Origin: a virus
Direction: 5' to 3' (one strand)
Length of the DNA: 26,471 nucleotides
Virus record (IMG/VR): IMGVR_UViG_3300009175_000069
Coordinates: 1 to 26,471 of that record
Within the stretch, counting starts at the first letter, position 1; the number at the start of each line of letters is the position of its first letter. The notes beneath the pieces are model-generated. The model ran no database searches, was not told the DNA's origin, and was given only the letters and a program-made list of their open reading frames with translations. Positions 3,246 through 24,390 of this stretch are shown piece after piece. Position numbers and translations under genes: made by a program.

Positions 3246-3656
3246 TTAAACACGAATTAATGCACTATTTGCTGAATCAGCAGGTAATGTCACAGTAAAT
3301 GAACCTATACAAGTCTTATCTGATCCAAAATTAAGAACAGCAACAGACTTGTTTCCCTTCGTCTGATTGTAGATTAAAGCACCTCTACAAGTAAAGGAAG
3401 CAGGAGACCATAATAAATTATCAAAACTAATATAGACTGTGCTTCCAGACGTATTAATAGTAACATTTTGGCAAAGTTTTCCACCTTCCAAATACCCCGT
3501 TCCTACGACTTCGTTTACAACAGAATACACAGTAGTATCTGCTCCAATACTGGCATTTCCTGTGTATAAAGCCATAAACAATACATCTGTAGACAAGTCT
3601 TGAAGGGCTTGTAAAATGTCCTGTTTAAACGAGGTAGTAATGGTTTGTTCTATCAT
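3246..3656 (-). CDS. Putative tail/virion protein, paralogue of the gene at 2558-3037
   Basis: This 136-aa protein has an N-terminal amphipathic stretch (TTSFKQDILQALQDL). Then come LFMALYTGNASIG, VVNEVVGTGYLEGG, GALIYNQTKGNKSVAVLNFG and SFTVTLPADSANSALIRV. The final two blocks line up with MLMYNSSQSNKAVAVFTFG and FTLTMPS-ALVRL of the downstream paralogue. Its ATG overlaps the stop of the 220-aa neck gene (ATGA), so translation is probably coupled. A structural tail role is inferred from location and beta-rich composition. Confidence 0.65.
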   Translation of the reverse strand: MIEQTITTSFKQDILQALQDLSTDVLFMALYTGNASIGADTTVYSVVNEVVGTGYLEGGKLCQNVTINTSGSTVYISFDNLLWSPASFTCRGALIYNQTKGNKSVAVLNFGSDKTCIGSFTVTLPADSANSALIRV

Positions 3657-14382: not shown

Positions 14383-16779
14383 TTAGTAGTACGCCACTTT
14401 GCGTCTAAATGATGGTATTTCATCGGGTTCATCAGACGAAAGTCGGACAAATCCACCTTTTCTAAAGCGAAGCAGAGCTTGGCTACTGGAGTCTACTAAG
14501 TCATCATGATCCCCATTGGGAAAGGATGCCATTTCTTCCATTACCTCATCTGCCCAGCGTGTATCTGGACACCATACCAAACCTGACGCAAACAGATCTG
14601 ATATTGCGTTTACACGGGCTATCTTATCACTGCCTTTGCTCGGTGTATATTCCGAAACAGGAATTCCCATTTGCCTCATTTCATAGATCAAGGGAGCACC
14701 TGAAGCTCTTTTTTCTACGATGAGATTATCTGGCTTCCAATCTTCATACATTTCAAAAGCTTTTTTCTTGAGTTCAGGGAACTCCATGCGTTGTTTATAC
14801 GCATCTAAAAGAATAATATTGGCTACCTCATCACCCTTTAAATTGGGTTGATAGAAGATTCCCCATGTCGTACAGGCGGAGTAGTCAGAACGATTGTTCT
14901 TTTCAAAGGCGGTATCCCAAGACTGGATAATGTGATCACAAGGAGGAGCTTCGGTTGAATCCCATATCTTCCACATCTCCCGTTTGATAATCGCCCCTTC
15001 TTCAGAGGTCGGGTTCTGTTGATACTGAGCCTCCCATTTGCCTACAGGGATCTCCGCTTTAATGGCTTCTAACTCTGCTTTACTCCAGAATTCGGGCCAT
15101 ACAGGGTTTCCACTAGGTAAAATCGCAGGGAACTCAATCACTTCCCATTCATCTCCATCCCGTTTTAATGAGTTGGCTAAGATCTGTCCTGTAAGGTCTT
15201 TCTTTGACCAGCGAGTATTGTGGCTAACTATTCCATTAGCTATAAAGTTTTCGGTTCTATCTACTTCAACATCAAATACTTCTTCTTGCCCCGATGGAAT
15301 AATACTAACTATTGGGTCTATCGTGAAGTCGGAGATACGATGCAGCTCGTTCAAGAATGTCTGATGTCTTTCCGTATCCAACGGCAAGGTTGCAGTCATT
15401 GCACAATAATCCTCTGACCTGTCCTGTGTCATGGTTGTGGTCAATGCAGAGTTTTTTGTTCCAATGCGCCCTTGTATTGATGCTTGAAGGCGGTTTTCCA
15501 CAGACATCACACAAATTCTTGCGTTCTTCCACCATTGTTTGGTATTGCTCAAGGGTAATCCCGTACCTATGCTTGATTCTTCTGGATCTATTTTGTTCTG
15601 CGGTTTGTTTTGGTGAACTATATTGTTTTTGGTAACACTTTTTGCATAGTCCTTTGCAGTGTATTGGTTCTCCACATTTGCAGAATTTTCCCTTCCATTG
15701 TCCGTGATGCCCAATAGGATGTCTTGGTGCGTTTGGATTTTTTCTATGGTAGCTTGCTTTTGATTGGCAAGCGGAACACTTGTCTGGCTTTGTTTGTGAC
15801 CTTGCAGGTCTATTGCATCCTTCGTTGCTACAAGCAACATTCCCGTTTTTAAATCCTGAAGTCTTGTCCATTCCATTATTCCATCATTAAAAACAAGAAA
15901 CGGGTGTCTCTCATTTGCTTGAAGAATTATGCCAGATTGTGTTTGTATTGTGTATATGAAATCAACACCACTTGACTGCCAATGATTAATCTTACTTACC
16001 CCTAGATGACCTTTGTCAAATGTGGCTACCATATCTCCTTGGCGGAGGTTTTTTAACTGTGTATTTGAACCATCTGCCATTAAAACATTAGTATTGCCTG
16101 TCATACACATCACAATAACGATTGATCCTCCCGGCTGGAGACGTTGCCTTGGACCTGAACTAAACCATTCAAAGACCCTGTCATAAACAGACGATGTCCC
16201 TTGCATGGCTTCTTGCTCACTATGCGGATCATCAATAATCAATACATCTGCACCTTTACCTGTAACGGCTCCACCAACACCAATAGCGAAATAATCACCA
16301 CCCTTATCGGTATTCCACCGTCCAGCAGCTTTGGAATCTGTAGAAAGCTTGGTAGGAAAGATCCCTTGGTAATCAGGCGTAGCCACTAAGTTACGCACTT
16401 TTCGTCCAAAACCTACTGCGAGTTCTGCGGTATGGGCTGTTTGAATGATCTTTTTTTCAGGAAACTTGCCTAAATACCAAGCGGGGAATAGGTATGAAGC
16501 GAACTCTGACTTCGTATGACGAGGAGGCATATTGATAATTAACCTCTTTAACTCCCCATTAGCCACCCTTTCAAAAGCATCTGCCATGTCCTTATGATGC
16601 TTTCCAGCAATAAAGGAAGACCACATATTCCTCACAAAGGGCATGAAGTTTTCCCTACAGCGTTCTTTCTTATCTTCTTTGAAAATAGAAGCTATCTTTG
16701 GTATCTGATCAGAACCTTCTGGAAGAACCTTTAACAGTTCTTGGTACTTCTTTATCTCTTTAGTCGTGAGAAGACTCAT
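14383..16779 (-). CDS. terL: Terminase large subunit, interrupted by an intein
   Basis: The 798-aa precursor is the packaging ATPase-nuclease. The N-extein has the Walker A-like PPRHTKSEF (residues 85-93), AHTAELAVGFGRKVRNL and Walker B VLIIDDPHSE (179-188). The sequence GGSIVIVM then stops at residue 224, and an intein (225-521) precedes TRWSKKDLTGQIL, so splicing restores the coupling motif IVIVM-TRW. The nuclease domain follows with QSWDTAFEKNNRSDYSACTT (first catalytic Asp), LIVEKRASG and FPNGDHDDLVDSSSQALLRF (final Asp). The spliced enzyme would be 501 aa, normal for the family. Its ATG overlaps the upstream HTH gene by 4 nt. Packaging depends on splicing, so host fitness of the phage is tied to the intein. 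Confidence 0.92.
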   Translation of the reverse strand: MSLLTTKEIKKYQELLKVLPEGSDQIPKIASIFKEDKKERCRENFMPFVRNMWSSFIAGKHHKDMADAFERVANGELKRLIINMPPRHTKSEFASYLFPAWYLGKFPEKKIIQTAHTAELAVGFGRKVRNLVATPDYQGIFPTKLSTDSKAAGRWNTDKGGDYFAIGVGGAVTGKGADVLIIDDPHSEQEAMQGTSSVYDRVFEWFSSGPRQRLQPGGSIVIVMCMTGNTNVLMADGSNTQLKNLRQGDMVATFDKGHLGVSKINHWQSSGVDFIYTIQTQSGIILQANERHPFLVFNDGIMEWTRLQDLKTGMLLVATKDAIDLQGHKQSQTSVPLANQKQATIEKIQTHQDILLGITDNGRENSANVENQYTAKDYAKSVTKNNIVHQNKPQNKIDPEESSIGTGLPLSNTKQWWKNARICVMSVENRLQASIQGRIGTKNSALTTTMTQDRSEDYCAMTATLPLDTERHQTFLNELHRISDFTIDPIVSIIPSGQEEVFDVEVDRTENFIANGIVSHNTRWSKKDLTGQILANSLKRDGDEWEVIEFPAILPSGNPVWPEFWSKAELEAIKAEIPVGKWEAQYQQNPTSEEGAIIKREMWKIWDSTEAPPCDHIIQSWDTAFEKNNRSDYSACTTWGIFYQPNLKGDEVANIILLDAYKQRMEFPELKKKAFEMYEDWKPDNLIVEKRASGAPLIYEMRQMGIPVSEYTPSKGSDKIARVNAISDLFASGLVWCPDTRWADEVMEEMASFPNGDHDDLVDSSSQALLRFRKGGFVRLSSDEPDEIPSFRRKVAYY
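15305..15871 (-). CDS. Endonuclease VII-type HNH homing endonuclease, -1 frame inside the intein
   Basis: This frame encodes 188 aa entirely within the TerL intein. Its first half holds two likely zinc knuckles (C14/C19/C32/C35, and C64/C66/C72/C76/C79). The C-terminal half, from RYGITLEQYQTMVEERKNLC, matches the recombination endonuclease VII family: C121-x2-C124, LCIDHNHDTGQVRGLLCNDC with D144, H145 and H147, then C157-x2-C160-N161. In T4 endonuclease VII the corresponding Asp-His, Cys pairs and Asn carry metal and zinc. A helix (SDILERAASYLRL) ends it. The ATG at 15871 has only a weak GGAA upstream, and the last -1-frame stop (TGA) is at 15884-15886. Expression could come from internal initiation or from -1 frameshifting at 15847-15853. 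Its likely job is to cut intein-free terL alleles. Confidence 0.85.
   Translation of the reverse strand: MDKTSGFKNGNVACSNEGCNRPARSQTKPDKCSACQSKASYHRKNPNAPRHPIGHHGQWKGKFCKCGEPIHCKGLCKKCYQKQYSSPKQTAEQNRSRRIKHRYGITLEQYQTMVEERKNLCDVCGKPPSSINTRAHWNKKLCIDHNHDTGQVRGLLCNDCNLAVGYGKTSDILERAASYLRLHDRPNS
15824..15853 (-). promoter_or_regulatory. Predicted programmed -1 ribosomal frameshift signal
   Basis: The slippery heptamer U UUA AAA lies at 15853-15847 and is in phase with the TerL-intein frame (codons TTA AAA). An 8-nt spacer (15846-15839) separates it from a perfect 6-bp hairpin GUUGCU-UGU-AGCAAC (15838-15824). A -1 slip enters the endonuclease frame at its residue 9. The product would be 311 terminase/intein residues plus 180 endonuclease residues, about 491 aa. 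All three elements of a standard signal are present; function is inferred. Confidence 0.7.
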
Positions 16780-18595: not shown

Positions 18596-18784
18596 ATGTT
18601 TACTCAAGAAGATCGTAACTATGTCAAATCATTATTGATTGACCGCAATGCAAAACTCGTCAGGGCTTTGCATTTTGTTGAACCCCATTCTGTACTGCTC
18701 TCAGATTGTGACGAGGTGCAAGCAGAGCTAGACCAAGTCACTGCTGTGCTTGGCAAAATTCGCAAAATTGAGGAGGCTGTATGA
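18596..18784 (+). CDS. Small hypothetical protein, first gene of the rightward operon
   Basis: This 62-aa protein starts behind a strong AGGAGGCTTA site. It is helical (EDRNYVKSLLIDRNAKLVRA, DEVQAELDQVTAVLGKIRKI) and resembles a short coiled coil. Its stop overlaps the next ATG (ATGA). I do not recognise a family. As first gene after the control region it is probably expressed early in infection. Confidence 0.65.
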   Translation: MFTQEDRNYVKSLLIDRNAKLVRALHFVEPHSVLLSDCDEVQAELDQVTAVLGKIRKIEEAV

Positions 18785-18954
18785 ATCAATTCGATGCTGT
18801 TGGTATTGCTGAAGGCTTTGTTCAATGTCACTCAGAAGATGAGTACTTGGAGGCTTGGCAGTACTTGGTTAGCTCAGGGCTGGCTTGGAAGTTGCAAGGC
18901 TGGTTTGGACGTACCGCTACTAACCTGATTGAAAGGGGTTTGATCAATGCGTAA
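18781..18954 (+). CDS. Small conserved phage protein (WQYLV-TGLAWxLQGWFGR type)
   Basis: A 57-aa frame overlaps both neighbours and was found by direct translation. It reads MNQFDAVGIAEGFVQCHSED, then EYLEAWQYLVSSGLAWKLQG and WFGRTATNLIERGLINA. The AWQYLV-(x)-(S/T)GLAW-x-LQGWFGR-x-A-x-LI-(E)-(x)-G-(x)-I pattern is a widely conserved small phage protein (a DUF7417-like family, from memory) of unknown function. Strong motif conservation makes it a confident gene despite its size. It overlaps the previous gene as ATGA and the next by 8 nt. Confidence 0.8.
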   Translation: MNQFDAVGIAEGFVQCHSEDEYLEAWQYLVSSGLAWKLQGWFGRTATNLIERGLINA

Positions 18955-19024
18955 CTTACTGATCGCCTTGGCTGTGGCTTATGTCATTGCCTCTGCCCTG
19001 TTGTATGTTTTGGACTCAATTTAA
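18947..19024 (+). CDS. 25-aa single-span membrane peptide
   Basis: The frame encodes MRNLLIALAVAYVIASALLY then VLDSI, with one hydrophobic helix after a positive start. It overlaps the preceding stop by 8 nt, the same coupling as its neighbours. Small hydrophobic phage peptides can alter membranes or inhibit membrane proteins, but nothing more specific is visible. The ribosome site (AAAGGGG, about 10 nt upstream) is acceptable. Confidence 0.55.
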   Translation: MRNLLIALAVAYVIASALLYVLDSI

Positions 19025-19032
19025 AAGTCGAA

Positions 19033-19046
19033 ACCTCTTCGGAGGT
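19033..19046 (+). other. UUCG-tetraloop hairpin
   Basis: ACCTC-TTCG-GAGGT forms a 5-bp stem closed by C(UUCG)G, an exceptionally stable loop. It lies 9 nt after the membrane-peptide stop and hides a GGAGG. No T-run follows, so it is not a terminator. A message-stabilising or processing role is inferred. Confidence 0.5.
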
Positions 19047-19090
19047 CTACCAGTTGTGCTGGTACTGATGATGACTATGAAAGGTATCGT

Positions 19091-19195
19091 ATGAAAAATC
19101 GTAATTTTGTGGCTAAGAATGCCAAGCGTTGCGGTGCTGGTAGTCACAGTGCTCGCAAATTCTGTCGTAAAACCAAGCATAAGGAGGTTGTATGA
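19091..19195 (+). CDS. 34-aa basic small protein
   Basis: This frame encodes MKNRNFVAKNAKRCGAGSHS then ARKFCRKTKHKEVV, rich in Lys/Arg with two cysteines. The stop overlaps the ATG of the SprT-like gene (ATGA), and its last codons hold that gene's AAGGAGG site. A tiny frame ending TATGA (around 19066) leads into it. The high charge suggests nucleic-acid contact, but no family is assigned. Confidence 0.5.
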   Translation: MKNRNFVAKNAKRCGAGSHSARKFCRKTKHKEVV

Positions 19196-19755
19196 AAACT
19201 CGTGAAGAGTGGCTAAATGAGGCGGTGGTTGCCCTTCGCCCGATCTTTGAGGTCAAGGGTTATCCGATCCCTGATCACGTCAGGGTGACCTGTGGTTTCC
19301 CTTCCAAACACGCACGTAGTTTGAATCGTGCAATCGGTGAGCACTGGTCTTCCAAGGCTAGTGACGATGCGACTCATGAGATCCTGATCTCCCCTGTGAT
19401 TGCCGATGCTATCGCTGTCTTTGGTGTGCTAGTACATGAGTTGGCTCACAGTGCGACTGATGGTGATGGTCATCGTGGACGGTTTCCCCATTGTGTCAAG
19501 TCGCTTTGGCTTAAAGGTAAGCCCACCACCACTGAGGTTGGGGATGAGTTCATTAAGAACTTTTCGTCCTTGATCGAATCCCTTGGGCAGTATCCTCATG
19601 CTCGTTTAAACGTCCAAGCGAATCGCAAGGTTCAAAGTACTCGGATGCTTAAAGCCTGTTGCCCAGCCTGTGGATATACGGTGCGGATTAGTAGTAAATG
19701 GATTGATGCTGGCTTACCAATTTGCCCAGTAGATTCCACCACTTTTGTTGTTTAA
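19192..19755 (+). CDS. SprT-like zinc metallopeptidase
   Basis: This 187-aa protein has the zinc site VHELAHSATDGDGHRGRFPH, with H82-E83-x2-H86 and a third His at 94 or so, and then a four-cysteine zinc ribbon (KACCPACGYTVRIS, GLPICP). It matches the SprT-like family, whose eukaryotic member Spartan cleaves DNA-bound proteins. Length and motif order fit. The upstream region binds the substrate (LRPIFEVKGYPIPDHVRVTC). It is the first of four linked genes with CobS/CobT-like proteins. Whether it cuts host, phage or DNA-crosslinked proteins is unknown. The gene starts at ATG behind AAGGAGG and ends 16 nt before the ATPase. Confidence 0.8.
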   Translation: MKTREEWLNEAVVALRPIFEVKGYPIPDHVRVTCGFPSKHARSLNRAIGEHWSSKASDDATHEILISPVIADAIAVFGVLVHELAHSATDGDGHRGRFPHCVKSLWLKGKPTTTEVGDEFIKNFSSLIESLGQYPHARLNVQANRKVQSTRMLKACCPACGYTVRISSKWIDAGLPICPVDSTTFVV

Positions 19756-19771
19756 ATTTTAGGAGGCTTAA

Positions 19772-21220
19772 ATGAGTAAATTAATTCAATCGGAATTGGC
19801 ACTTGTGCCATTGGCTGTACTCAACGCTGTGCTAGTAAATCATGGCATCCCAGCACGTAACACCACCGCCTACGGCATCATCGATGTGACTGACCTGATC
19901 ACCACTGGCAAGGTGACCTTGGATGAGGTCAAGACTACTAAGCCTTCGGCTGTCAGTCGTGCCTCAGTTGCTGGTGGTAGCAATGACCTGATGGTTGAGG
20001 CTCATGCTCAGGTCACCAAGGCAGTCGCTGATGTGGAGGCGATTCGTCAGGTGGCTGACTCAGCCTTAGACAATGCCTTGGCTCAGGCTACCAAGTTGGA
20101 GCGTAAATTCGATGAGCTGTCTGCTCGTTTAAATGCTAAGGTGGATGCGGTTGAGACTCCTTCGGATGCGGTCATTGCCTCAGTTGTCTCTGCCCAGTTT
20201 GATGCTTTCCGCAAGGTCACACCCAAGGCTAAGTTGATTGAGATTGCACAGGCTTTGCCTACCACCACTCGCAAGCTGGCTAAGGAAGTCTTTGACGGTG
20301 ATCTGTCCTACATCAAGGACGGTGTAACGGTGGACTTCAGTGGCATTGAGGTCTCAGTGTGGAATGATCCATCTGCTCCAGCTTTGGTATCTGACTACGT
20401 CTTTGCTCCAGCCCATCTGCATCAGGCTTTGCTTGCCTTAGACGATGTACTGCCTGACAACGTATGGCTGGCTGGTGAACGTGGTACTGGCAAGACTGAG
20501 TTCGTCAATCAGTTAGCCTCTCGCCTTGGTCGTAAGCTGTTTCGGATTAACTTTGATGAGGCTTTGGAAAGGGCTGACTTCATTGGTGCGAACACGATTG
20601 AGAATGGCAACGTGGTGTGGAAGGCTGGTGTCCTTAGCCAAGCTATTCAGTACGCTGGTGCGATTGTGCTGTTCGATGAGATCGGGTTTGCTCGTGCTCA
20701 GAACATAGCGATTCTGCATTCAGTGTGTGAGCCTTCGCCTCATCGTTCTATCGTCATCCCTGAGACTGGTGTGCGGATTGCTGTTGCTCCACACGTAGTC
20801 TTCTTCGGTGCTGATAACTCCAATGGCTTTGGTGATTCGTCAGGTAACTTTGCTGGTGTGCGTGATCAGAACACTGCCTTCTTGGATCGGTTCAGTTTCA
20901 CTCTACGCTTTGAGTACCTACCCCAAGATCAGGAGGTTGACTTGGTGTCTAAGCGCACTGGTCTGTCTGTTGCCTCTAGCGAGATCATTGTGAAGTTTGC
21001 TAACGTGGCTCGTGAGAAGGCTCGTGCTGGTCTGTTGACACAGCCACCTAGTCTTCGTCAGTTGTTTGCCTTTGCTCGTGCTGTACGTAAGGGCTTGCCT
21101 GTGTCAGTCGCTTTTGAGAACGCTATCGTCAACAAGTTTCCGCAAGATTGCGAGGCTGAGTTACGTGGTGTGTTTAGTGCAACGGTTGACGTTGCTAATT
21201 TTAAGGAGGTCGTATGCTAG
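19772..21220 (+). CDS. CobS-like (MoxR-type) AAA+ ATPase
   Basis: This 482-aa protein has an N-terminal helical and coiled region (about residues 1-170). A AAA+ core follows: Walker A GERGTGKTEF (235-244), the segment ADFIGANTIENGNVVWKAGV, Walker B AIVLFDEIG (297-305), FFGADNSNGFGDSSG as sensor region, and LDRF with a likely arginine finger near 373. The order and the GVLSQAI/PSLRQLFAFARAV elements match CobS, the ATPase of aerobic cobaltochelatase, and the wider MoxR group. CobS-like genes also occur in cyanophages. The ATPase acts with a VWA partner, encoded next to it here. No CobN is present, so a remodelling chaperone role is more likely than cobalamin synthesis. The ribosome site is AGGAGGCTTA. 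Confidence 0.85.
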   Translation: MSKLIQSELALVPLAVLNAVLVNHGIPARNTTAYGIIDVTDLITTGKVTLDEVKTTKPSAVSRASVAGGSNDLMVEAHAQVTKAVADVEAIRQVADSALDNALAQATKLERKFDELSARLNAKVDAVETPSDAVIASVVSAQFDAFRKVTPKAKLIEIAQALPTTTRKLAKEVFDGDLSYIKDGVTVDFSGIEVSVWNDPSAPALVSDYVFAPAHLHQALLALDDVLPDNVWLAGERGTGKTEFVNQLASRLGRKLFRINFDEALERADFIGANTIENGNVVWKAGVLSQAIQYAGAIVLFDEIGFARAQNIAILHSVCEPSPHRSIVIPETGVRIAVAPHVVFFGADNSNGFGDSSGNFAGVRDQNTAFLDRFSFTLRFEYLPQDQEVDLVSKRTGLSVASSEIIVKFANVAREKARAGLLTQPPSLRQLFAFARAVRKGLPVSVAFENAIVNKFPQDCEAELRGVFSATVDVANFKEVVC

Positions 21221-22308
21221 GTTTAAACGTGAAACGTGGGGTAGAGACTACCCTTGAGCGTGTGTTCAATAACGGTGGTGAACGGTTCGATAACTTGGAG
21301 ATCAATTGGACTGGCACTACCGCTGGCATTATCTTTAAACGTAGCGGTACTTACACCTCTGCTCGTGTGATCTTCCCAGCCATCGATGAGACAGCAAACA
21401 TCGAGCATGGCAAATTCAATAACCTGATTGGCTACGCTCTGCATGAGTTGGGTCACGCATGGTTCACTGACTCTGCCCCTTGGGACAACGCTCGTACTAA
21501 GCATGGTCACTTCGTTAATGGATTGATCAACGGCTTGGAAGATCCACGCATCGAACAGGCAGTCATCGACTCAGGTCGTGCTCCCAATAGCAAGGCTTTG
21601 TTTAACAACCTGATTAACTCAGTGACTAGCAAGGAATACATCCAAGCTGATGATCGGAAGAACATCCCCTTTCTGCTGGCTGTTGAAGGTAGACGTTTAA
21701 ACGGTTACCACATCAATGTCCCGAACATCGTTGACGATGCACCTTGGTCTGCTGATTTGCACTGGGCTTTAAACAAGGCACACCTTGCTACTAGCACTAA
21801 GGAGATTGTGAAGATTGCACTTGCTTTGTTCAAGCGTTTGCAAAAACACCAACCTCCTAAGCATTCTGATGAAGGTAATGATCAGGGTGAAGATCAGGGT
21901 AAAGATCAGGGTAACGATCAACCCCAAGGTGATCAGCCTCAAGGCAATCAACCTAGTGATCAACCTAGTGACGATCAAGGTGACGATCAAGGTGGCGATC
22001 AACCATCCGATCAGCCTGTTGACGAGCCATCCGATAAGGGCAGTGATGCTGGTGATGCTGGCGATGATGCTGATGATGCTGATGATGCTGGTGATGCTGA
22101 TGATGCTGATGCTGGTGATACCGATGGTGATAAGCCTAGTGATAAGCCTAGTGACGGCTGGTCTGATGAAGACACTGCTGGTGGTAAAGAAGTAGAGCCT
22201 AGTGATTTCATTCAAGATGAGTTGAAGGAACACGCTAGTGAGGCTGATGCATTAAGACCTAGACCTATTGTTGGCAATCCTGTCATTCGTACATTTAATT
22301 GGAGTTAA
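21214..22308 (+). CDS. CobT-like protein, N-terminal half with HELGH motif
   Basis: This 364-aa protein begins LNVKRGVETTLERVFNNGGE and holds ALHELGHAWFTDSAPW (H77-E78-x2-H81) followed by NGLINGLEDPRIEQAVI (Glu near 109), a gluzincin-like layout. The HELGH and N-LED-RIE elements resemble the N-terminal half of CobT. The C-terminal third (about residues 215-345) is a low-complexity acidic linker made of Asp/Gln/Gly/Pro and GDAGDD units, as in CobT. The VWA domain that should follow is in a separate gene one base downstream, so the family protein is split. Together they total 628 aa, close to a standard CobT. The start overlaps the ATPase gene by 7 nt, with AAGGAGGT. Confidence 0.75.
   Translation: MLGLNVKRGVETTLERVFNNGGERFDNLEINWTGTTAGIIFKRSGTYTSARVIFPAIDETANIEHGKFNNLIGYALHELGHAWFTDSAPWDNARTKHGHFVNGLINGLEDPRIEQAVIDSGRAPNSKALFNNLINSVTSKEYIQADDRKNIPFLLAVEGRRLNGYHINVPNIVDDAPWSADLHWALNKAHLATSTKEIVKIALALFKRLQKHQPPKHSDEGNDQGEDQGKDQGNDQPQGDQPQGNQPSDQPSDDQGDDQGGDQPSDQPVDEPSDKGSDAGDAGDDADDADDAGDADDADAGDTDGDKPSDKPSDGWSDEDTAGGKEVEPSDFIQDELKEHASEADALRPRPIVGNPVIRTFNWS
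21869..22190 (+). repeat. Low-complexity GAT/CCTAGTGAT repeat tract
   Basis: Short imperfect repeats of GATCAGGGT, CCTAGTGATCAA, GATGCTGGT/GATGCTGAT and GATAAGCCTAGT encode the acidic linker of the CobT-like protein. All three frames and the antisense strand stay partly open through it, which explains long spurious frames there. Length probably varies between related phages. Confidence 0.75.
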
Positions 22309-22309
22309 C

Positions 22310-23104
22310 GTGAATAAAAATCAATGTGAACAAACCTTCTCTGCGGAGTTTAACAATCAGGTGCAAGGTCTTGGAGCTACTCGCTCTAACATCATGCGCC
22401 TTCTTCGTAGCCTTGACTTGGTCGGTTGGAATACGCATGAAGAATCAGGACGGCTGGATCGTAAAGCGTTTACACGCTTTGCTACTGGCGGGACTGCAAT
22501 CTTCTCCAAGCGTACTCATGTAGAGGCTGAGAAGTCTGCGGTCTCTGTACTGATTGACTGCTCAGGATCGATGGGCTATGGCGGTGAGATCTACACTGCT
22601 CAGTCGATTGCTATTCAATTGGCTAGGATCTTGGACAAGGCTGATGTGTCCTTCGCTGTCACTGGTTTTAACGGTGGCGATATTAGTGAAGAGAATGTTC
22701 GGTTGGGTGATAAGCCAATCGGTATACATAAGCAGATCGTGAACTTCATTCCATTCAAAACATGGGGTGACTCACTGAATCGTGCCTCTGCCAAGCTAGG
22801 CTCTATCAATTGCTGGGCTGGCAAGTCTACCCCTGACTACTCTGCCCTTAGCCTGACGATTGAAGATCTCGGCAAGCGTGAAGAGACACGTAAGATCCTC
22901 TTCCTGTTGACTGATGCTGACGGTTATAAGAAGGAGCATATGCAACACTTGCAATCCCTTGCTGATAAGTTGAATATCAAGTTGATTGCAATCGGTATCG
23001 GCAAGACCAAGGTTCAAGATTGTTTTACCCACGCAGAGAATGTATCTGATGTAAATGATCTAGCCTCTGCATCATTTAATAAACTGTTGAAGGAGTTGCG
23101 GTAA
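22310..23104 (+). CDS. VWA-domain protein (CobT C-terminal half)
   Basis: A GTG start at 22310 is chosen because GGAG lies 5 bases upstream; an earlier frame extension overlaps the CobT-like gene in another frame and lacks a ribosome site. The 264-aa product has a helical N-terminus (GLGATRSNIMRLLRSLDLVG) and then a von Willebrand A domain with the MIDAS motif VSVLIDCSGSMGYGG (D83-x-S-x-S in this numbering). The downstream threonine is in STPDYSALSLT and the aspartate in LFLLTDADGY. VWA proteins of this type are the partners of MoxR/CobS ATPases. Its stop and the next ATG overlap (TAATG). It is a fission product of cobT relative to bacterial homologues. Confidence 0.82.
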   Translation: MNKNQCEQTFSAEFNNQVQGLGATRSNIMRLLRSLDLVGWNTHEESGRLDRKAFTRFATGGTAIFSKRTHVEAEKSAVSVLIDCSGSMGYGGEIYTAQSIAIQLARILDKADVSFAVTGFNGGDISEENVRLGDKPIGIHKQIVNFIPFKTWGDSLNRASAKLGSINCWAGKSTPDYSALSLTIEDLGKREETRKILFLLTDADGYKKEHMQHLQSLADKLNIKLIAIGIGKTKVQDCFTHAENVSDVNDLASASFNKLLKELR

Positions 23105-23316
23105 TGGATATCAAAACTGTAATCAAATTAACCGATGAGATTGGTACGGTACTGGATGGCTCAGAGATTGAGTCTGTTATCACAGTGCTGTCCAATCTGT
23201 TGGCTCGTGCTGGTCATGACTCTGACGTAGGGTGCAATGACCTAGTGAATTATGTAACTAAAACGATCTACAAAGTTTATCTGTTGCCTGATGAACTTGA
23301 TGTAGTTCTTCATTGA
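23104..23316 (+). CDS. Small hypothetical protein
   Basis: This 70-aa protein starts in the TAATG overlap with the VWA gene, so translation is coupled to it. It is predicted mostly helical (VIKLTDEIGTVLDG, IESVITVLSNLLARAGHD, DLVNYVTKTIYKVYLLPDEL). No known motif is seen. Linkage suggests a partner of the SprT/CobS/CobT module, but this is only context. Confidence 0.6.
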   Translation: MDIKTVIKLTDEIGTVLDGSEIESVITVLSNLLARAGHDSDVGCNDLVNYVTKTIYKVYLLPDELDVVLH

Positions 23317-23341
23317 TGACCGTAGCTAAGGAGGCTTAATC

Positions 23342-23545
23342 ATGGCAATTATTCGTGTATCAATTTTGGTAGATATTGACACTACCGACACCGACATCGA
23401 GGATATTAGAGATGATATTTTGGATGTTGCATTTGAACAGGCTACAAATAATCCTGAGTTGTTTTTACTTAAACCATTAGACCTTGATGATGAGTCTGAT
23501 TGGGAAGACTTTGATAATCATCCACATTTAAACAGCGAGGCTTAA
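23342..23545 (+). CDS. Small acidic hypothetical protein
   Basis: This 67-aa protein is preceded by AAGGAGGCTTAATC. A beta-strand start (AIIRVSILVDIDTTD) leads to an Asp/Glu-rich helix and tail (DIEDIRDDILDVAFEQ, LDDESDWEDFDNH). The charge pattern could mimic DNA, as some phage inhibitors do, but no family is recognised and this is speculation. Confidence 0.6.
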   Translation: MAIIRVSILVDIDTTDTDIEDIRDDILDVAFEQATNNPELFLLKPLDLDDESDWEDFDNHPHLNSEA

Positions 23546-23546
23546 T

Positions 23547-23732
23547 ATGTACAACGTACTTAGTAAATATACAATTATCGAAACACACAACGGTTACATG
23601 GTTGAATGGGGCGATGAAGATGGACAACATGACGGCTACGTCTCTGCTCCGAATGGTGACAACACCTTCGGTAGCTATACACAGGCAGTCATCGTTTTAA
23701 CTCAACACTTACTTCGGGAGACATTGATATGA
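23547..23732 (+). CDS. Small hypothetical protein
   Basis: This 61-aa protein is preceded by GAGGCTTAAT. Its strand-like start (VLSKYTIIETHNGYMVEWGD) and helix (SYTQAVIVLTQHLLRE) suggest a small alpha/beta fold. It overlaps the next gene by 4 nt (ATGA). No family is recognised. Confidence 0.6.
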   Translation: MYNVLSKYTIIETHNGYMVEWGDEDGQHDGYVSAPNGDNTFGSYTQAVIVLTQHLLRETLI

Positions 23733-23920
23733 ACCTTCAAGAACTTAAGCAACGGTATCACCCTGAGATTGTCGAGCATATGTTAGAGGTTTTGCACGAT
23801 ACCCCAGTTAGTGAGTTGATAGATGAATTAATATATCAAACCCCTAAATCAGATTTTGATAAATGGGCAAAACAAATTCAAGAAGATAACTCTTATTCAG
23901 ACGAGGTGAATCATGGATAA
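23729..23920 (+). CDS. Small helical hypothetical protein
   Basis: This 63-aa protein is mostly helix (MNLQELKQRYHPEIVEHMLE, VSELIDELIYQ, DFDKWAKQIQED). Its end, EVNHG, comes from codons that hold the next gene's GAGGTGAATC ribosome site and ATG. The following gene ends in the same five residues for the same reason. Function unknown. Confidence 0.6.
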   Translation: MNLQELKQRYHPEIVEHMLEVLHDTPVSELIDELIYQTPKSDFDKWAKQIQEDNSYSDEVNHG

Positions 23921-24077
23921 AGCATGGGTAGCATCTGAGTTAAGGTCAGCGATAGCCTACTACACAGATTTAACAGTGGAAGAGCACATGAGTAGCACTG
24001 TTAATAAAGAAGCAGATAAGGCATGGAAAAAAGTTGAAAAGTTAATTAACAAACTTGCAGAGGTGAATCATGGTTAA
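23913..24077 (+). CDS. Small helical hypothetical protein
   Basis: A 54-aa frame overlaps both neighbours by 8 nt and was found by direct translation: MDKAWVASELRSAIAYYTDL, then TVEEHMSSTVNKEADKAWKK and VEKLINKLAEVNHG. It has a GAGG ribosome site within the upstream gene and the same ending as its neighbour. It fills what would otherwise be a gap in a fully packed operon. Function unknown. Confidence 0.65.
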   Translation: MDKAWVASELRSAIAYYTDLTVEEHMSSTVNKEADKAWKKVEKLINKLAEVNHG

Positions 24078-24348
24078 TCCTGATCGTTGGTTACAAAGCT
24101 GTGCAGAAGATTACACAGATGATGAAGATGGTCGTTCTGAAGAATGGGACGATAAGTACTGCGAACTGGAGAAATCAATTGCCAAGGATGGTATTGATAA
24201 TTCAAAGCATGACTTTGCAGATACGCTCTATGAATATCAGCCACGTTTAATGCAAGCGATTGCTAATGGTGATGATGTGTTAACCCTGATGATCATCAAA
24301 GAGGTGTATGTAAAAGAACTTAGCGGTATCGTTAATCGAGATCTGTAA
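24070..24348 (+). CDS. Small acidic hypothetical protein, last gene of the rightward operon
   Basis: This 92-aa protein is acidic at its N-terminus (DRWLQSCAEDYTDDEDGRSE) and helical later (HDFADTLYEYQPRLMQAI, DVLTLMIIKEVYVKELS). It follows the overlapping ATG with GAGG and ends just before a strong terminator, closing the operon. No family is recognised. Confidence 0.65.
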   Translation: MVNPDRWLQSCAEDYTDDEDGRSEEWDDKYCELEKSIAKDGIDNSKHDFADTLYEYQPRLMQAIANGDDVLTLMIIKEVYVKELSGIVNRDL

Positions 24349-24354
24349 ATAAAT

Positions 24355-24390
24355 AATCCCCATCGGAGCGATCCTTTGGGGATTTTTTTT
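24355..24390 (+). terminator. Rho-independent terminator of the rightward operon
   Basis: AATCCCCA (24355-24362) and TGGGGATT (24377-24384) form an 8-bp stem with a 14-nt loop, and the T-run reaches 24390. It ends the rightward operon. On the minus strand the stem is followed by a T-rich stretch, so it could also act weakly on the convergent helicase transcript. Confidence 0.9.

Follow-up and report, generated by a model that had tools for sequence, protein, structure and literature searches.

Four genes on the plus strand, at positions 19192 to 23104, form one block in the order SprT-like gene, CobS-like AAA+ gene, CobT N-half and CobT C-half (a VWA protein), and on balance we favor the reading that together they make an accessory, ATP-driven protein-remodeling and proteolysis machine of the phage. 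The block lies in IMG/VR virus record IMGVR_UViG_3300009175_000069, of which positions 1 to 26,471 (here called the window) were analyzed. The reading is supported by the gene content, the fission of CobT, the conserved ATPase, VWA and HExxH residues, the lack of chelatase partners, the replacement of the module by an analogous machine in related phages, and its absence from sister phages. The original prediction had described four genes in tight order and had named their motifs. All four open reading frames are present in that order and on that strand, as are the HELAH of the first protein, the HELGH and acidic linker of the third and the VWA DxSxS of the fourth.

The prediction had also called for a survey of SprT, CobS and CobT sets in other phages. 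A first scan, using the N-half patterns HELGHAW and EDPRIEQ, yielded 80 contigs. Because this pattern favored some of the conserved residues, the scan was redone with CobS instead of HELGH as the anchor, and distant proteins were checked for the motif. The second scan added 27 contigs, and 109 were tallied in all, the window counted among them. Among the 27 additions, SprT was found in 27 of 27, HELGH in 25 of 25 where the gene was present, and the split in 17 of 17; this rescan and the motif check in distant proteins counter the possibility that the conservation of HELGH is an artifact of the search pattern. SprT lies upstream of CobS in 105 of the 109 contigs, and the remaining 4 contigs are truncated on the upstream side. 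All 78 contigs that cover SprT, CobS and the N-half keep the three in the same order (78/78), and with this recurrence a chance arrangement is excluded. The module-bearing contigs belong to one clade of uncultured tailed phages, with syntenic terminase, portal and primase genes, so these counts describe conservation within a single lineage and not independent inventions. By portal, the nearest deposited phages include HTVC023P-type pelagiphages and Planktothrix phage Pag-Yong1.

The first gene (19192 to 19755, plus strand) encodes a SprT-like zincin of 187 amino acids, with HELAH at residues 82 to 86 (nucleotides 19435 to 19449) and a C-terminal zinc ribbon whose C157, C160 and C178 are invariant. 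The protein matches phrog_6361 (1e-40) and is 42-48% identical to phage proteins annotated as SprT-like. The profile PF10263 does not match it, while 11 of 39 family members do match, at best with 2.5e-4. Its predicted fold is nearest to the minigluzincins (abylysin with probability 0.99 and E = 4e-3; selecase weakly), and the model has the HExxH zincin fold with a C-terminal zinc ribbon. In L068/L069 and L078 the HExxH of this protein has been lost (VQLAH, IQLVN), and CobS and the HELGH gene are retained. SprT relatives in other phages occur without CobS nearby, and in other CobST phages no SprT gene is annotated beside CobST; the link of SprT to the rest of the module may therefore be genomic and not physical.

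The second gene (19772 to 21220, plus strand) encodes a CobS-like AAA+ ATPase of the MoxR/CobS/NorQ class, 482 amino acids long, which matches AAA_5 (3e-15), CbbQ_C (1e-6) and phrog_249 (1e-44). Its Walker A motif, GERGTGKT, is at 20474 to 20497; all catalytic motifs are present, and Walker A and B, N349, R373 and R429 are conserved across the family. With this AAA_5-type ATPase near a VWA protein that bears DxSxS, the module has the makeup of a MoxR/CobS-class AAA+ and VWA pair. It was not recognized as a known defense system, for which PADLOC returned weak AAA matches only.

The third gene (21214 to 22308, plus strand) encodes the CobT N-half, which in an AlphaFold2 model is a folded domain of about 210 amino acids, followed by a D/E-rich linker (approximately 21850 to 22230). 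HELGH occupies residues 77 to 81 (nucleotides 21442 to 21456), NGLEDPRIE follows at 21529 to 21555, and the protein matches phrog_1576 (1e-13) over profile positions 31 to 365. A lack of conservation in the HELGH residues had been named as a finding that would count against the prediction. In 82 of 82 N-half sequences, H77, E78, L79, G80 and H81 are invariant, barring an insertion variant in four, and N106, G107, L108, E109, D110, P111, R112, I113 and E114 are invariant as well; H77, E78, H81, N106, D110 and E114 are thus all kept. The variant is a one-residue insertion, HEGLGH, of the form HExxxH (4 of the 82: L044, L047, L057 and L067). Because active metallopeptidases with HExxxH are known (PMC10499314), these four proteins need not be dead.

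The model of the N-half has pLDDT >90 across most of residues 1-211. HELGH falls on a helix (65-84) and NGLEDPRIE on another (99-120), a predicted layout that is compatible with a zincin. A PDB fold search with this model gave no significant match, and its weak matches were often zincins (ZMPSTE24, SPRTN, MATCAP). Among viral models, the structure matches phage CobT-type proteins (E down to 4e-12) and HHTV-2 gp2. A genome scan for hosts returned a sole match, a stand-alone HELGH gene in one Comamonadaceae MAG (L088:3904-4551), with no CobS or VWA nearby; its 215-aa product is 38% identical to the N-half. This homologue and the confident model together indicate that the HELGH domain is autonomous.

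The claim that CobT is split held for both halves, which are present, and needed one correction: the VWA gene starts not at TTG 22268 but at GTG 22310. So delimited (22310 to 23104, plus strand), it encodes a protein of 264 amino acids with DCSGS, the VWA DxSxS motif, at 22556 to 22570, and matches CobT_C (8.5e-11), VWA (6.5e-6) and phrog_1576 (7e-21 over positions 461-723). Within the 729 positions of phrog_1576, the matches of the two halves run from the N-domain to the VWA domain, but on two polypeptides. The D, S, S and TD of the VWA protein are kept in 68-69 of 69 sequences. At the fission junction, TGGAGTTAACGTG (22300 to 22312, plus strand), a Shine-Dalgarno GGAG (22301 to 22304) sits inside the last codons of the N-half, and a single base separates the TAA stop of the N-half from the GTG. 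This layout would imply stop-start translational coupling. The TTGGAGTTAA-n-GTG arrangement is repeated in relatives, and the two close relatives that were checked share the junction. Fusion was seen in 0 of the 86 contigs that carry both halves; the halves stand in all three relative frames (45, 24 and 17 contigs), the VWA start is offset by -4 to +11 from the N-half stop, and an SD-like motif is present in 84 of 86. The lack of any fused contig and the varying relative frame show that the split is genuine; it is also old. A programmed frameshift or a sequencing error is ruled out by the three frames together with the start and SD at the stop.

In the mechanism that we propose, CobS would form an AAA+ ring that most likely strains or partly unfolds a target, while the separate VWA protein, a MIDAS-type adaptor, would pick the target and couple the ring to it. 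The CobT N-half would be a zincin-like peptidase held to the assembly by its acidic linker, and the SprT-like protein another zincin, bearing a zinc ribbon and acting with or beside the N-half. One or both zincins would cut the target, probably a host protein or complex. Fission may let the peptidase and the adaptor be made or bound in differing amounts. In this scheme, the joining of the proteins in one complex, their zinc binding and catalysis, the direction of force and the identity of the target are inferred. With HEGLGH in 4 contigs and the SprT HExxH lost in two lineages, neither activity can be strictly required; no contig lacks both HExxH sites, though the numbers are small. The split also makes the module tractable, because peptidase and adaptor are separate genes, each of which can be removed or mutated alone.

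The same genes could act without proteolysis, with CobS and the VWA protein maturing or activating a complex in the manner of RavA-ViaA or NorQ-NorD, and HExxH serving for binding or structure. The CobS class is nearest to the CobS/NorQ/CbbQ activators, known MoxR-VWA pairs serve to mature complexes (PMC7159879, PMC3893208), and HEGLGH variants and SprT losses do occur. However, the H, E and H and the second helix motif are strictly kept in proteins that share little else, and some metallopeptidases are active with HExxxH (PMC10499314). We judge a chaperone without proteolysis to be rather unlikely.

A comparison with sister phages bears on whether the proposed remodeling and proteolysis machine serves the virion. 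We collected phages with a closely related portal regardless of whether they carry the module, and it was present in 1 of the 12 portal relatives with enough upstream sequence (1 of 18 whole records). Six records have DUF2201 in place of the module. In the five of IMG/VR origin, DUF2201 is encoded on the strand opposite to portal, approximately 9 to 11.5 kb upstream of it (a circular genome being assumed for G042), and in the loci read in detail an AAA+ gene is followed by a DUF2201_N metallopeptidase-VWA gene. The slot is the same in module and DUF2201 phages, namely a divergent position upstream of terminase. DUF2201 was found in 0 of 15 module records vs 6 of 17 others (Fisher p = 0.019, for a modest sample in which several comparison records are fragments), and PF13203/PF09967, for the DUF2201 system, had no match among the window proteins. 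The module appears to occupy a slot for exchangeable AAA+/metallopeptidase/VWA machines. Other relatives have neither: CobS, AAA_5, VWA and DUF2201 all went unmatched in L105/G030 and G033, which have syntenic head genes and a portal about 70% identical; the complete HTVC023P (44% identical portal) likewise gave no match to any of the four; and one sister record with neither system is 58 kb long, with a portal 71% identical. Since sisters carry the DUF2201 system or neither, the module is probably accessory and not needed for virion assembly.

A set of MoxR plus metallopeptidase-VWA has already been proposed for jumbo-phage virions (PMC7824862), and by that proposal and the analogy of the ATV tail system the module could be an assembly or maturation machine that processes head or tail proteins. 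Its place beside the terminase and portal genes would suit such a role. It is, however, transcribed opposite to the structural genes, and the sister phages with syntenic head genes do without CobS, AAA_5, VWA and DUF2201, so that we find a virion function improbable.

The SprT-like gene raises another alternative, in which a Spartan-like SprT protease clears DNA-protein crosslinks or replication forks and the AAA+ motor pulls proteins off phage DNA. That gene, with its zinc ribbon, stands first in the module, a primase-helicase gene adjoins the module, and SPRTN is among the weak fold matches of the CobT N-half. Yet the primase gene belongs to a separate transcription unit, on the other strand, and the two lineages without the SprT HExxH keep the remaining genes; such a role is quite improbable.

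The zinc motif of the CobT N-half separates phage-type from canonical CobT. Fused CobT-like proteins of CRP-810, T5S1, ICP2, P-SSM2 and HTVC008M carry HExxH, as do those of Ochrobactrum phage OC, a Rhizobium phage, an E. coli phage-plasmid and a Marinobacter plasmid, and in these nine the second motif has N and D and ends in E or D. In HHTV-2, gp2 reads HEVQH...NVLEDNHID and is separate from the VWA gene of that virus; the N-half of HHTV-2 is gp2 and not gp8, which was also tried and has no motif. The motif is carried, as HEAAH and HEIVCH (HExxxH, L276), by two proteins of bacterial genomes as well, both outside the canonical clade. By comparison, HExxH at the motif site occurs in none of 20 high-scoring canonical CobTs. 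An unrelated HEPAH occurs in one canonical CobT, close to where its open frame begins and away from the motif site, and the CobT in the PDB reads SMALR at the HELGH position, in a weakly aligned stretch. In a tree of VWA domains, the canonical CobTs and five motif-less bacterial relatives form one clade (100/99) and the split phage proteins a separate one (100/100); because of weak deep branches and long-branch warnings, only these two clades are taken from the tree. With HExxH in the phage and plasmid proteins examined and in 0 of 20 canonical ones, the paper that calls the peptidase label on phage cobT mistaken looks doubtful, and the motifs suggest that the label may be right.

The original prediction had preferred a machine to a chelatase, had noted the lack of cobalamin genes nearby and had named cobN elsewhere in the phage as evidence that would overturn it. 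The window shows no cobalamin gene, and CobN was found in 0 of 29 phage records (the window included, many of them fragments), although the host may have a CobN. Ribonucleotide reductase was likewise found in 0 of 29 related records, many of them fragments. CobT homologues occur on plasmids of E. coli and Klebsiella in hundreds of records, and no CobN-family match was obtained in the E. coli control genome. CobS scores 75.4 bits with TIGR01650, for which the equivalog cut-off is 558.55 bits, and the VWA gene 35.2 bits with TIGR01651 (cut-off 759.05), which the N-half does not match. Despite family-level homology to CobS and CobT, a helper by which viral CobST recruits host CobN and raises the B12 supply for DNA synthesis (PMC8651126) is therefore disfavored and very improbable, given scores far under the cut-offs, related phages and an E. 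coli control as just described, and a zinc motif missing from canonical CobT. The preference for a remodeling and proteolysis machine is borne out by the absent CobN and conserved HELGH residues, which distant phage and plasmid CobT-like proteins share and canonical CobT lacks, and the same-slot replacement by AAA+ and DUF2201 metallopeptidase-VWA genes points to remodeling and proteolysis.

Several known systems resemble the module in part. Phage CobS/CobT pairs (phrog_249, phrog_1576/phrog_459; cyanophages, CRP-810, ICP2, phage-plasmids) likewise have an AAA+ CobS near HExxH...N..(E)D...E, a linker and VWA, but their CobT is a single polypeptide and no SprT-like gene is annotated adjacent in the loci read, whereas here CobT is split and SprT comes first. 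A split cobT was previously noted in HHTV-2 (PMC8651126), where gp2 is an HExxH and acidic-tail gene and gp3 a VWA gene; this is, however, a distant archaeal virus with its AAA gene several genes away, and its fission is apparently independent. The DUF2201_N/DUF2201 and AAA+ system of Pag-Yong1 and the IMG/VR relatives shares the slot, the strand relation to terminase and the functional parts, but comes from different protein families, has peptidase and VWA fused, and has no SprT-like gene by the module profile. Cobaltochelatase CobNST (PDB 9uka) is homologous in the CobS AAA+ and CobT VWA domains, while its canonical CobT is without HExxH, its CobN is missing here, and the module scores under the equivalog cut-offs. 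The jumbo-phage MoxR plus metallopeptidase-vWA (PMC7824862) follows the same domain logic, but is fused and was proposed for virion processing, against which the sister-phage comparison argues in this clade. New, as far as the literature shows, are the clade-wide fission with its stop-start junction and fixed SprT linkage, the presence of the zinc motif in phage-type but not canonical CobT, and the same-slot replacement by an analogous machine, with evidence against a virion-assembly role in the clade.

The cobS and cobT genes are core genes of T4-like cyanophages (PMC8651126), and phage copies are frequently listed among the auxiliary genes for vitamin B12. Reading them as a machine challenges the interpretation of 'cobS/cobT' genes across many phages, and should phage 'CobT' turn out to be a peptidase coupled to an AAA+ motor, viral ecology would have to revise a widespread claim about metabolism. 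Tentatively, and with more doubt than conviction, we extend this reading to phage and plasmid 'CobT' proteins in general, which could be ATP-powered metallopeptidase adaptors, with cobaltochelatase CobT a branch without the zinc site and with phages swapping machines in one slot as host-directed weapons.

The module is flanked by small genes. Two small ORFs of 62 and 57 amino acids (18596 to 18954, plus strand), with GGAGG ribosome sites just upstream, are probably on the same transcript; the ORF at 18781 to 18954 matches phrog_3908 (6e-12) and is present in 18 related contigs. On the 3' side, further small ORFs (23104 to 24348, plus strand) end at a terminator-like hairpin, and those at 23104 and 24070 are present in 23 and 20 related contigs. 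The hairpin (24355 to 24390) was judged by eye; the scanner did not report it, and its long loop is the probable reason. A scan for consensus promoters found no excess vs shuffles. G+C is 47-51% in the module (19000 to 23000) vs about 38-46% elsewhere in the window.

The module-bearing loci are also rich in a palindromic octamer, GTTTAAAC (context Y...R), with 922 copies in 906 kb vs 16 expected, or about 1 per kb in every one of the 82 module loci from the first scan. The 13 copies in the window are at 3623, 6080, 8404, 11825, 17180, 17346, 18069, 18266, 19604, 21221, 21695, 24428 and 25264. The octamer is rare in portal-related phages (47 vs 18 expected; absent in 62 of 80), and no enrichment of CGTTTAAACG was found across 399 Pseudomonadota genomes. 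In density, GTTTAAAC is similar to the cyanobacterial HIP1. Finally, the terminase large subunit of the window (14383 to 16779, minus strand; 798 amino acids) is interrupted by an intein (Intein_splicing, 4.7e-15, residues 237-521), and the terminase of a sister phage (L160:6277-8814) reads as two ORFs, possibly through an intron, intein or insertion.
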